DNA from: Natronorubrum halalkaliphilum
Lineage (GTDB): Archaea; Halobacteriota; Halobacteria; Halobacteriales; Natrialbaceae
Length of the DNA: 64,000 bases
Reading direction: 5' to 3'
Assembly: GCF_009834785.1 (NCBI RefSeq)
Contig: NZ_WUYX01000004.1
Location: 1 to 64,000, forward strand
The position numbers and the translations under genes were made by a program. How positions within the stretch are numbered: position 1 is the first letter of the stretch; every line of letters starts with the position of its first letter. The notes beneath the pieces are model-generated. The model did not search any database and was not told the origin of the DNA. It worked only from the letters and a program-made list of their open reading frames with translations. Of the stretch, positions 2,104 through 54,686 are shown one piece after another.

Positions 2104-2190
2104 CTCATACGGACCGTTGTCGTTCGTTACCGGTGATCGCTGCTCCCGTCGAAACGATCACCGGTAAAACGCTACAACAATCCGTATCAG
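2104..2190 (-). repeat. Dispersed palindromic element, copy B
   Basis: An 87-bp palindrome with canonical termini CTCATACGG and CCGTATCAG. The inner arms TTACCGGTGATCG and CGATCACCGGTAA are perfectly complementary but unrelated to the inner arms of the other subfamilies. It lies directly after the stop codon of the frameshifted PIN gene: that gene's TGA is followed immediately by the element's CTGATACGG. Confidence 0.85.
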
Positions 2191-2876
2191 TCACGCCAAT
2201 CGAAAACCTCCATACGATCCCGAGACACCCGGTCTGCTCCGCCTGTAAACTGTCTCAACGCCTCGTGTGAGACCGGCTGCAATACCCCAAAGGGAGCCTG
2301 ACATCGGTCGTTCGTGTGTCTTAGCGATCGAGCCGTCAATCAGATCTTGCAAAAATACCCGACCTTCGATCACCAACGTCTGGTCCTCGACACCGACTAC
2401 GGAGAGCACATCGCTAATAGCTCGTTTGGCGACCGTATCGCTTACGAAGACGGTGATATGTTGGTTGCGGCTTTCGACATACTGGTAGGCTAACCCGGCA
2501 AGAACGGTATCAGTTTTCTCGATTTCGTCCTCAGTAACGTCATCTGCAGAAAGGTGAAGCATCCGAGTCCGAGTTTTGTCAACGACTTTCGAGACGCGAG
2601 GGACGGAAAAGTCGATCCGTCCTGGTTCGATCCATCCAGCATCCTTGCCGCCTGCAGACGATCGCGTTGATATCCGTATGCTTCCGGACTCTCTCCGAGT
2701 TCTTCAGCTACGTGCTGGGGTACTGTAACCATGATGTTTCGTCGACGGACGAAGCGCTCAAAGGCCCGGTACTTTTCGTTCGACGGTCCTCCCATTGCGA
2801 ATAGCACGCTACTGTCGATGATCGCGGCGCTATCCCTCGGATTCGTTCCGCAGACATTACTTCGGTCGCTCCACAT
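2191..2876 (-). pseudogene. PIN-domain protein, frameshifted (toxin-like partner of the upstream regulator)
   Basis: The N-terminal part reads AAIIDSSVLFAMGG (first PIN aspartate) through QHVAEELGESPEAYGYQRD in one frame. The C-terminal part, ending in the frame of residues VFVSDTVAKRAIS and VIEGRVFLQDL, is in another. Upstream of the internal ATG at 2562 the second frame stays open and reads GWIEPGRIDFSVPRVSK, a sensible continuation. One missing base in the AA/TT pair near 2644 (gcaagg instead of gcaaagg on the coding strand) would rejoin them into a protein of about 228 residues. PIN domains are Mg-dependent ribonucleases. The start (ATG 2876) overlaps the end of the regulator gene by 20 nt, so the two are translationally coupled. 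It could be a real pseudogene or a sequencing error. Confidence 0.75.
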
Positions 2877-6957: not shown

Positions 6958-7045
6958 CTCGTACGGTTTGCGGTGACGGTTTACCGGTGCAACCGCAAGT
7001 CGTCCTGCGGTTGCGCCGGAAATGACTTACAGCAGACCGTCTCAG
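6958..7045 (-). repeat. Dispersed palindromic element, copy C
   Basis: 88 bp, from CTCGTACGG to CCGTCTCAG. The inner arms CCGGCGCAACCGCA and TGCGGTTGCACCGG pair with one mismatch around the loop GGACGACT, a loop almost identical to copy A. The terminal TGA (minus strand CTGAGACGG) is the stop codon of the VOC gene ending at 7042. Confidence 0.85.
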
Positions 7046-33453: not shown

Positions 33454-33541
33454 CTCATACGGATTGCTGTAACTATGTACCGCCGATCACCAGGGACGAA
33501 GTCGGTGATCAGCGGTAATTGACTCCAGTAACCCGTATCAG
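33454..33541 (-). repeat. Dispersed palindromic element, copy D
   Basis: 88 bp with termini CTCATACGG/CCGTATCAG. Inner arms GCCGATCACC/GGTGATCAGC surround AGGGACGAAGTC. Nearly identical to copies E and F. Its terminal TGA is the stop codon of the methyltransferase gene ending at 33538. Confidence 0.9.
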
Positions 33542-34323
33542 AGACGGATCGCGCGAAACCGCAGCCGACGATAGTCCGCCGTCCACGTCTCCTCATCCCG
33601 GTCGTACAGGGCCGGCTCGAGTCGGTCCTCGACGGCGTCGATCACCGCCGTTCGTTCGGCTGCCGGCACTGACTCGAAGAGGCTGTCACCGAACATGCCG
33701 AGCCAGTTTCGAAGCCCCGCGTCGCCGCCCTCGAGTTCCGTCGGTCGATCGAACAGCCTCGCGAACCGAACTTCGAACCCGTGATCCTCGAGTCGGGTCG
33801 CGTACTCGCCGACGCTCGGGAAGTACCACGGCGATTCGGCCTCGTAGCCGCGGGCCTCGAGTTCCGCGACCGTCGCCTCGACGATCCGTTCGACGTTCCC
33901 CGTTCCGCCGAGCTCGGCCACGAATCGACCCGTTCCGGAAGAAAGCGCCTCCCGGACTGACGAGAGCACGGCCCCCTGATCCTCGTCGGGGATCCAGTGT
34001 AAGGCGGCGTTCGAAAAGACCGCGTCGAAGGGGCCCTCGAACGACATCGTCCGCGCATCGGCGTGAACGAACGTTCGGTCCGGATGCGTCTCCCGTGCCT
34101 GCTCGATCATCTCCGGTGCGCTGTCGACGCCGACGACGGTCGCGTCGCTGCTCGCGATTCGGTCCGTGAGATGGCCCGTTCCACAGCCCAGGTCGAGAAT
34201 CCGTTCGCCCGGTTCGGGATCGAGCACTTCGAGAACGTCGCTTCCGTACTCGTAGACGAACGAGTGGTCCTCGTCGTAGTCGTCGGCGTTCCAGCTGTTC
34301 GATCGTGACTCGTCGCGACCCAT
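33538..34323 (-). CDS. Class I SAM-dependent methyltransferase
   Basis: 261 residues. Motif I ILDLGCGTGHLTDRI (about 42-56), acidic loop VGVDSAPEMI, and FDAVFSNAALHWIPDEDQ, the post-motif II region typical of trans-aconitate/malonyl-type small-molecule methyltransferases. The C-terminal cap has EYATRLEDHGFEV. Substrate unknown. The gene sits exactly between palindromic elements D and E; its stop codon lies in D and its start is 150 bp from E. Confidence 0.9.
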   Translation of the reverse strand: MGRDESRSNSWNADDYDEDHSFVYEYGSDVLEVLDPEPGERILDLGCGTGHLTDRIASSDATVVGVDSAPEMIEQARETHPDRTFVHADARTMSFEGPFDAVFSNAALHWIPDEDQGAVLSSVREALSSGTGRFVAELGGTGNVERIVEATVAELEARGYEAESPWYFPSVGEYATRLEDHGFEVRFARLFDRPTELEGGDAGLRNWLGMFGDSLFESVPAAERTAVIDAVEDRLEPALYDRDEETWTADYRRLRFRAIRL

Positions 34324-34473: not shown

Positions 34474-34561
34474 CTCATACGGACTGCTGTAACTATGTAC
34501 CGCCAATCACCAGGGACGGGGTCGGTGATCGGCGGTAATTGACTACAGTAAACCGTATCAG
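34474..34561 (-). repeat. Dispersed palindromic element, copy E
   Basis: 88 bp and the best-preserved full copy. On the minus strand it starts CTGATACGGTTTACTGTAG, has inner arms ACCGCCGATCACC and GGTGATTGGCGGT, and ends AGCAGTCCGTATGAG. The terminal TGA is the stop codon of the methionine synthase gene ending at 34558. Confidence 0.92.
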
Positions 34562-35634
34562 TCGTCGGCCGGCGTCGGCGCACCGCGTTCGACGTCGATG
34601 TTGCCCTCGTCGAGGTCGGCCTCGACGTTGCGGGCCGCTTCGACCATGTTCGCCATCTTGCCGTAGGCGACCTCCCGGGGAAGCAGCTTCACGCCGCAGT
34701 CCGGCGAGACGACGAGCTGTTCCGGCGGGACGACCTCGAGCCCTTTCTTGATGTTCTCCTCGATCTGTTCGACGGATTCGACCTCGGCGACGTGGGCGTC
34801 GGTGACGCCGAGCGCGAGGTCCTTCGAGAACTCGGGGTCCTTGAAGACGTCGAGCTGGTCGTAGTCGCCGTTCGCGAGTTCGAGGTCGAACTCGTCGACG
34901 GGGAACTCGAGGATCTCGGGGTAGATACGCGAGTAGTCGCCGTAACAGACGTGCAGACCGATACGGACGTCCTCGTCGATGTCCTCGACGATGTGTTCCA
35001 GCGCCTCGCCGACGATGGCGTGGTCGTCGGGCGTCGTCGCGAGCGCGGGCTCGTCGATCTGGATGTAGCGCGCGCCGGCGTCGACGAGCTTCTCGATCTC
35101 CTCGTTGACGAGGTCGGCGAGCTCGAGCGTGAGCTCGTCGTCGTCGTCGTAGGCCTCGTTGAACGACCAGTTGGCGAGCGTGTAGGGACCGGTGATCGGG
35201 ACCTTGACGGGACGGTCGCTCGCGTCGGCGGTGAACTCGTACTCGTCGACGAGCCAGCTCTCGTCGTACTCGACTTCGCTGACGACGGAGGGCTTGTCGA
35301 AGTAGTTGTGTCCCCACACCTTGACGGGGCCGTTGAACTCGTAGCCCTCGATCCGGTGGGCGAAGAACTCGACCATCTCGTTGCGCCGCATCTCGCCGTC
35401 CACGACGACGTCGAGACCCGCGCGCTCGTGTTCGTTCGTGATGAGCCGCGAGGCGTCGTCTTTGGCCTCCTGATAGTCGTCCTCGTCGAACCCGTGATCG
35501 GGGTCCTGATAGAGCTCTTTCGCGCGGTTGAGCCACTTGGGCTTGGGGTAGGAGCCGACGACGGTCGTCAGCAGGAAGTGGTCGTTCGCGTGGTCGTCCG
35601 GTCGGAACTGGTCTTTGTTCTCGTTCGTGCTCAT
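34558..35634 (-). CDS. metE: Cobalamin-independent methionine synthase, catalytic subunit
   Basis: 358 residues, corresponding to the C-terminal half of bacterial MetE. Zinc ligands are visible as His228 and Cys230 in GLHVCYGDY and Cys313 in SPDCGVKLL; the fold signature YIQIDEPALAT is at 190-200. TTVVGSYPKPKWL is the usual start of this domain. It transfers a methyl group to homocysteine; the archaeal methyl donor is uncertain because the tri-glutamate folate domain is absent. The start overlaps the stop of the upstream MetE-like gene by 4 nt (ATGA), so the two are co-translated. The stop codon is provided by element E. Confidence 0.93.
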   Translation of the reverse strand: MSTNENKDQFRPDDHANDHFLLTTVVGSYPKPKWLNRAKELYQDPDHGFDEDDYQEAKDDASRLITNEHERAGLDVVVDGEMRRNEMVEFFAHRIEGYEFNGPVKVWGHNYFDKPSVVSEVEYDESWLVDEYEFTADASDRPVKVPITGPYTLANWSFNEAYDDDDELTLELADLVNEEIEKLVDAGARYIQIDEPALATTPDDHAIVGEALEHIVEDIDEDVRIGLHVCYGDYSRIYPEILEFPVDEFDLELANGDYDQLDVFKDPEFSKDLALGVTDAHVAEVESVEQIEENIKKGLEVVPPEQLVVSPDCGVKLLPREVAYGKMANMVEAARNVEADLDEGNIDVERGAPTPADD

Positions 35635-47641: not shown

Positions 47642-47729
47642 CTCATACGGATTGCTGTAACTATGCACCGCCGATCACCAGGGACGGGGTCGGTGATCGG
47701 CGGTAATTGACTACAGTAAACCGTATCAC
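47642..47729 (-). repeat. Dispersed palindromic element, copy F
   Basis: 88 bp, nearly identical to copies D and E. CTCATACGGATTGCTGTAAC at one end, ATTGACTACAGTAAACCGTA at the other, inner arms ACCGCCGATCACC/GGTGATCGGCGGT. Unlike the others it lies between two plus-strand genes, and its terminal TGA is not a stop codon of a neighbour. Confidence 0.9.
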
Positions 47730-54227: not shown

Positions 54228-54548
54228 ATGATTCCGTTCGATCCGTTATTCGTACCCGGTGCGCCCGGGGGGCCGGAACTCCTGATCATGCTGTTCATGC
54301 TGGTGCTCTTCGTCGTCGTTCCGGTCGTCGTCATCGTGCTCGTCATTCAGCAACTCACCGGCGATGGTGGTGGAAGTGGCGGGAGTGGTGCCGGCGAACG
54401 ACGTCCGACGCGCGACGCCGGTCGTTCCGCGAGCGATGCTGATCCCGCCCTCGAGCGGCGAGTCGCGACGCTCGAGCGACAGGTGTCGACGCTCGAACAA
54501 CGCGTCGAACGCCTCGAGTCAGACGACAGCGAACTGAACGGGCGCTGA
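54228..54548 (+). CDS. Membrane-anchored coiled-coil protein
   Basis: 106 residues. One long N-terminal helix (LLIMLFMLVLFVVVPVVVIVLVIQQL), a Gly/Ser linker, and a leucine-heptad coiled coil (VATLERQVSTLEQRVERLES). Topology: anchored with a cytoplasmic coiled coil. Function unknown. Confidence 0.8.
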   Translation: MIPFDPLFVPGAPGGPELLIMLFMLVLFVVVPVVVIVLVIQQLTGDGGGSGGSGAGERRPTRDAGRSASDADPALERRVATLERQVSTLEQRVERLESDDSELNGR

Positions 54549-54686
54549 ACGGAGCGCTGTTCGTCAGTTCCGGTGTGACCGCGACCCGTCCTGCGGCCGC
54601 GTCGGGGACCCGGTACAGCGTTCGGTATGGCGGAACGGCATTGCAGAAACCCTGGTGTCTAAACCGTCCGAACGCGTATACGGAGT

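Follow-up and report, generated by a model that had tools for sequence, protein, structure and literature searches.

The palindrome at positions 2104–2190 of the window (the 64,000-nucleotide stretch of Natronorubrum halalkaliphilum DNA that was analysed) very probably belongs to a family of non-autonomous, MITE-like elements of ~80 bp that is distributed across the Natrialbaceae and presumably moved by a transposase. A palindromic MITE family that combines a target at which stop codons are rebuilt with recurrent inversion of the loop appears to be new. Among the papers searched, none contains the end sequences of the element and none links Natrinema or Haloterrigena to such a MITE. A sequence-only reading of the window had proposed that the hairpin, as RNA or as cruciform DNA, is what is maintained. 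Covariation of the inner arms agrees with part of this proposal, while the unit that is maintained is a transposed element and not a fixed hairpin.

Seven copies of the element in the window

A covariance model, R1, was built on 30 diverse copies and used to search the window. The search recovered seven copies of a near-complete palindrome of ~80 bp, five of which still fold well. They comprise the six copies that the sequence-only reading had listed and a further, decayed copy at 54548–54627 on the minus strand (31.6 bits, E 5.6e-7).

Copy B occupies 2108–2186 on the minus strand (69.4 bits, E 1.6e-18), is bounded by TACGG...CCGTA, and carries the inner arms TTACCGGTGATCG and CGATCACCGGTAA, as the earlier reading had described. 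Its predicted DNA fold has an energy of −25.2 kcal/mol (z −7.1), which none of 200 shuffled sequences equalled, and the same sequence folded as RNA gives a z of −6.9 against shuffles. The copy is flanked by target-site duplications of TCA at 2105–2107 and 2187–2189 on the plus strand, assigned by the 3-bp rule derived below from 82 of 95 copies, and sits one base past the stop of a small ORF (2191–2562, minus strand). The subfamily with TTACCGGTGATCG arms has few members and is common to several species of the genus; another member lies in this genome (contig C48, 155017–155097) and others in the congeners G009 (C2:625346) and G001 (C1:787549).

Of the plus-strand copies, copy A (77–154; 38.4 bits, E 4.7e-9) has GGTGGG-type arms and is decayed, and copy C (6962–7041; 61.6 bits, fold z −5.6) has GCAACCGCA/TGCGGTTGC arms and a decayed duplication (TCG/TCA). 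Copy D (33458–33537; 84.5 bits) is flanked by TCA at 33455–33457 and 33538–33540, copy E (34478–34557; 87.6 bits) has its right duplication at 34558–34560, and copy F (47646–47725; 92.7 bits) is intergenic with a TCA/TCA duplication. Measured against shuffled DNA, the folding advantage persists in copies B, C, D, E and F (z −4.1 to −7.3) and is gone in copy A (z −0.8) and the 54.5-kb copy (z −0.5). The arm sequences quoted in the earlier reading are correct, subject to this loss of folding and to one broken pair in the inner stem of copy D and another in that of copy E.

The surroundings of copy B differ from those in related genomes. Matches to congeners break off near 1934, and nine congeners lack, in the corresponding position, the segment 1935–3430, which runs from a glutaredoxin/thioredoxin-reductase-like gene to 3.4 kb. 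This segment encodes a DUF7437/TrmB-like regulator and small ORFs; it has the look of a small island, on whose edge copy B would lie. A stretch of ~31 bp around GAGGTCCCGTGGTTCGAG (2014–2051) is found again at several sites of congeners, replicon C2 of G006 being a frequent location; it resembles the 3′ end of a tRNA and may be what is left of an attachment site. ARAGORN places a tRNA-Phe at 1730–1803 on the minus strand, antisense within the thioredoxin-reductase-like coding region, which is probably a false call.

Insertion at a palindromic target duplicates three base pairs

The element is non-coding, with terminal inverted repeats TACGG...CCGTA and arms of 34 bp. The 5-bp ends, TACGG, are almost invariant among copies. 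Inside them lies a lower stem that is conserved in sequence and carries fixed differences between its left and right sides, namely A.A at position 6, G.T at position 9 and an asymmetric internal loop at positions 15–20, all of which are kept by every subfamily. The upper stem (positions 21–34) varies freely in sequence and stays complementary, and encloses a loop of ~12 nt.

Immediately outside the ends, most copies have C-TSA on one side and TSA-G on the other, where S is C or G. In 82 of 95 copies the same triplet, always TCA or TGA, stands on both sides, and in no copy does the identity extend to four bases; the duplication is thus exactly 3 bp long. Copies in three other genera show the same (22/23, 19/22 and 17/23; 58 of 68 together). 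The S base is independent of the orientation of the element interior (30, 19, 17 and 14 copies in the four combinations), which shows that the target, rather than the element, supplies the triplet. When all sites are oriented to have TGA on the top strand, the flanks reveal preferred insertion at a palindrome that approximates CGWC-TSA-GWCG and of which the central TSA is duplicated. This preference is present in non-coding and gene-end copies alike and differs from the background around TGA.

Insertions rebuild stop codons

In about half of all copies the duplicated triplet is a TGA stop codon. Stop codons were assigned by a codon-usage score trained on the long genes of the window, not by annotation. 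Among copies whose left flank is coding, the duplicated TGA is the in-frame stop of the gene in 41 of 50; for control CTGAG sites the corresponding figure is 27 of 174 (p 3e-18). The excess persists when only non-disruptive sites, that is stops and non-coding sites, are considered (41/72 versus 27/128, p 5e-7), and among copies from other genomes the duplicated TGA lies at a stop codon in 48 of 53.

Two copies in the window illustrate this arrangement. The right TCA of copy D (33538–33540) is the TGA stop of a minus-strand methyltransferase gene (33538–34323; Pfam Methyltransf_25), and the right duplication of copy E (34558–34560) is the TGA stop of a minus-strand methionine-synthase-like gene (34558–35634; Pfam Meth_synt_2) ending in ...GCC-GAC-GAC-TGA. 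For the copy E locus, the one at which an empty orthologous site is known, all nine congeners have the gene with the same last codon followed by TGA or TAA and no element, the gene ending in ...GACGAC-TGA/TAA or close variants. The exact empty target, GACGACTGAGAC, is present in one of them, G009, as GACGACTGAGACC; the occupied site in this genome, ...GACGACTGA followed by the element and TGAGAC, matches it. These empty sites indicate that insertion at copy E rebuilt the stop codon and left the protein unchanged. More generally, where the duplicated triplet is a stop codon, insertion regenerates it and the protein stays intact.

The preferred target matches the ends of haloarchaeal genes (...GAC-TGA-G...), so that the bias towards stop codons would arise from target preference combined with loss of harmful insertions.

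The element is abundant throughout the Natrialbaceae

The 4.56-Mb draft genome to which the window belongs (G000; the window is positions 1–64000 of its contig C57) contains at least 97 copies with the strict end pattern, compared with none for a reversed control pattern. A model search of the same genome lists at least 150 matches, some of which are the two strands of one copy. Among 61 genomes tested, 34 contain the element, including all ten of the genus and most other genera of the Natrialbaceae, and the element also reaches a few genomes from elsewhere in the order; many of the 34 have at least 70 matches. Hosts include Natrinema, Natrialba, Natronococcus, Natronolimnohabitans, Natrarchaeobius, Salinadaptatus, Halobiforma and Natronosalvus, and the element is also found on two N. 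bangense plasmids, one of them NZ_CP031306. Among viral contigs, 76 have a 17-bp match to an end, and none of these has a full element.

Many nearly identical copies occur in one genome, G026 (loci L224–L243), which suggests recent activity. At two loci (L306:5443–5600 and L045 at ~1583–1663) copies stand in tandem and have one TGA in common (...CCGTA-TGA-TACGG...), apparently because a second element landed in the target duplication that an older copy had made. Pairs of neighbouring copies that flank a gene are, by estimate, about as numerous as expected from chance spacing.

Inner arms co-vary beyond shared ancestry

In the 30 diverse copies, 91.6% of cells are paired, and the covariation score is 0.325, compared with 0.148 for shuffled sequences and at most 0.138 for slid controls. 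We then mapped changes onto a tree of 180 distinct copies, all chosen for an intact duplication. The inner stem shows 18 changes from one Watson-Crick pair to another with both partners changing on the same branch, compared with 0–2 for partners shifted by 1 to 3 columns, whereas the outer (lower) stem shows no pair-to-pair changes and keeps its sequence. In a tree built without the loop, 13 inner-stem co-changes remain, on eight branches, and four of the 13 fall on one deep branch that splits the two main subfamilies; all these trees rest on 80 bases and are poorly resolved. The difference between subfamilies maps in part (4 to 6 pairs) to a single branch, which indicates that these pairs were replaced together and not compensated one by one. 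The earlier observation that arms differ between subfamilies and stay complementary is thus sustained on the tree, and the inner arms co-vary beyond what shared ancestry explains, so that either arm pairing matters or it is actively restored.

The pattern of broken pairs and of loops bears on how complementarity is kept. On the tree, 47 of the changes that break an inner-stem pair lead to A.C and 40 to G.T, and raw counts over copies are 68 G.T and 59 A.C in the inner stem and 29 and 16 in the lower stem. Identical arms enclosing exactly inverted loops occur in three genera (this genome, G020 and G026); one set of arms, for instance, encloses GCCGTCCGGGTCGC in some copies and GCGACCCGGACGGC in others. 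On the tree, loop orientation changes 39 times, about as often as when its labels are shuffled (39.4), and the two orientations number 121 and 43, not the 1:1 of a free flip. Arm complementarity therefore looks like a property of the DNA: A.C as frequent as G.T, taken with the inverted loops, points to interaction of the arms by cruciform formation or template switching, and either process can itself restore pairing.

Is complementarity selected or copied?

In RNA genes, template switching between the arms of a hairpin is reported to invert loops and, unaided, to create compensatory changes (PMC8794818). Compensatory change accordingly need not imply that the hairpin is under selection, the inverted loops being a footprint of template switching or of cruciform resolution. 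That the complementarity is purely mutational, with template switching copying arms and inverting loops in the absence of selection on the hairpin, is a real possibility, although one we lean slightly against; it is compatible with mobility of the element. The exact inversions between identical arms, the label-like scatter of loop orientation and the multi-pair replacements on single branches all fit this explanation, as does the documented mechanism. It accounts less well for the lower stem, whose fixed mismatches are kept although copying should erase them. Moreover, pair-breaking changes lie mostly on tips (97 of 119, with 22 on internal branches), whereas of the 18 pair-to-pair changes 10 lie on tips and 8 on inner branches, as if copies with intact stems were the ones to spread; the trees, built from 80-base copies, are poorly resolved. 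Because pair breaks are concentrated on tips and lower-stem mismatches persist, selection on intact stems may act beside mutation.

A selected RNA element placed after stop codons, such as a terminator, a stabiliser of mRNA 3′ ends or a small RNA, would explain the frequent position directly behind stops, the strong RNA fold and the significant covariation. We consider it improbable nonetheless, and the RNA form of the proposed hairpin was rejected as the main reading, because the inner stem has no excess of G.U-type over A.C mismatches, copies lie in either direction with respect to the gene without bias (77 to 93, p=0.25) and Rfam 15 gives no match in the window. The hairpin has no U tract on its 3′ side, and clean 3-bp duplications and empty orthologous stops likewise speak against it.

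Search for the transposase and comparison with known elements

For the MITE-like family, the data suggest that the palindrome would fold, or be copied across, during replication or transposition; such folding or copying would restore arm complementarity, and copies with good hairpins would then spread. A more specific version is a fold-back element in which the extruded hairpin is the intermediate: a haloarchaeal transposase would read the mismatched lower stem, require a paired inner stem of any sequence, flip the loop during processing, much as the terminal hairpins of parvoviruses flip, and integrate the element with a 3-bp stagger at CGWCTSAGWCG, rebuilding stops. As a whole, the fold-back version appears unlikely.

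The family has the MITE features of short length, no coding capacity, high copy number, terminal inverted repeats, a fixed 3-bp duplication and, at one locus, empty orthologous sites. The remaining feature, ends in common with an autonomous transposon, was sought down to about 14 bp of shared end: every end site inspected in 15 low-copy genomes belongs to an ~80-bp element, complete or decayed, and no longer element with these ends lies in the 1.8 Mb of related DNA scanned. One 2.8-kb candidate, L267, was rejected as the autonomous element, being a decayed 60-bp copy next to a chance end. Counting against the MITE-like reading, besides this negative result, is the strictly kept length of 80 bp together with the conserved internal mismatches, since MITEs that arise by internal deletion seldom show either.

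Among palindromic elements of bacteria, ERIC and RUP are MITEs present in many intergenic copies, ~100-bp imperfect palindromes that duplicate TA. Going by this general description, the haloarchaeal element resembles them in its imperfect palindrome, high copy number and intergenic location, and is set apart by duplicating TSA and not TA. With PIF/Harbinger and Tourist-type elements it has in common the 3-bp duplication, MITE amplification and a target whose triplet is centred in a palindrome. A 3-bp target duplication is described for PIF/Harbinger and Tourist-type elements (PMC2213677). A PIF/Harbinger transposase was nevertheless rejected as the mover, as DDE_Tnp_4 (PF13359) was found in none of the 61 genomes.

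In Haloquadratum walsbyi, HqIRS MITEs have the ends of known transposons and almost always lie within IS605-type transposons or PATEs (PMC3119063). They are likewise short, non-coding and numerous, with terminal inverted repeats, a target duplication and no transposase of their own; unlike them, the present element is almost wholly palindromic, prefers gene ends, and has no partner with matching ends among the DNA searched. The SMR-A and SMR-B elements of the same species reportedly produce no target duplication and target other mobile elements (PMC3119063). They resemble our element in size (80–110 bp), prominent inverted repeats, ends unlike those of known transposons and enigmatic mobilisation, but it makes an exact 3-bp duplication at a palindromic chromosomal target, and the duplication in 82 of 95 copies rules out an SMR identity.

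A Y1 (HUH) tyrosine transposase that moves the element in single-stranded form, as for REP/REPIN-type elements, would account for a short, high-copy palindrome with a conserved foot, conserved mismatches and an intergenic or gene-end location. The 3-bp duplications are not a product of IS200/IS605-type transposition, and REP/REPIN-RAYT elements are not known to make a target duplication. REP/REPIN sequences, which are thought to be miniature transposons used by RAYT transposases, carry a GTAG or CGTC tag at the foot of the palindrome (PMC3733652), whereas the present element has neither. Furthermore, the Y1 transposase domain (PF01797) was found in 27 of 37 genomes and in the controls, and not in this genome, although a transposase formerly present and since lost may also fit its absence. 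A REP/RAYT identity was rejected on the duplication, the tag and the missing domain, and Y1 mobilisation seems very hard to credit.

Implications

Copies of the MITE-like family stand at the 3′ ends of many Natrialbaceae genes, where annotation could mistake them for terminators or small RNAs. Hundreds of natural copies also offer a setting in which two usually confounded causes of compensatory change, selection on a hairpin and copying between arms during replication, can be separated. If the interpretation is true, the family is a clear case of an archaeal mobile element that limits harm by landing on, and rebuilding, stop codons in about half of its copies, a habit that spans a whole family of halophiles.
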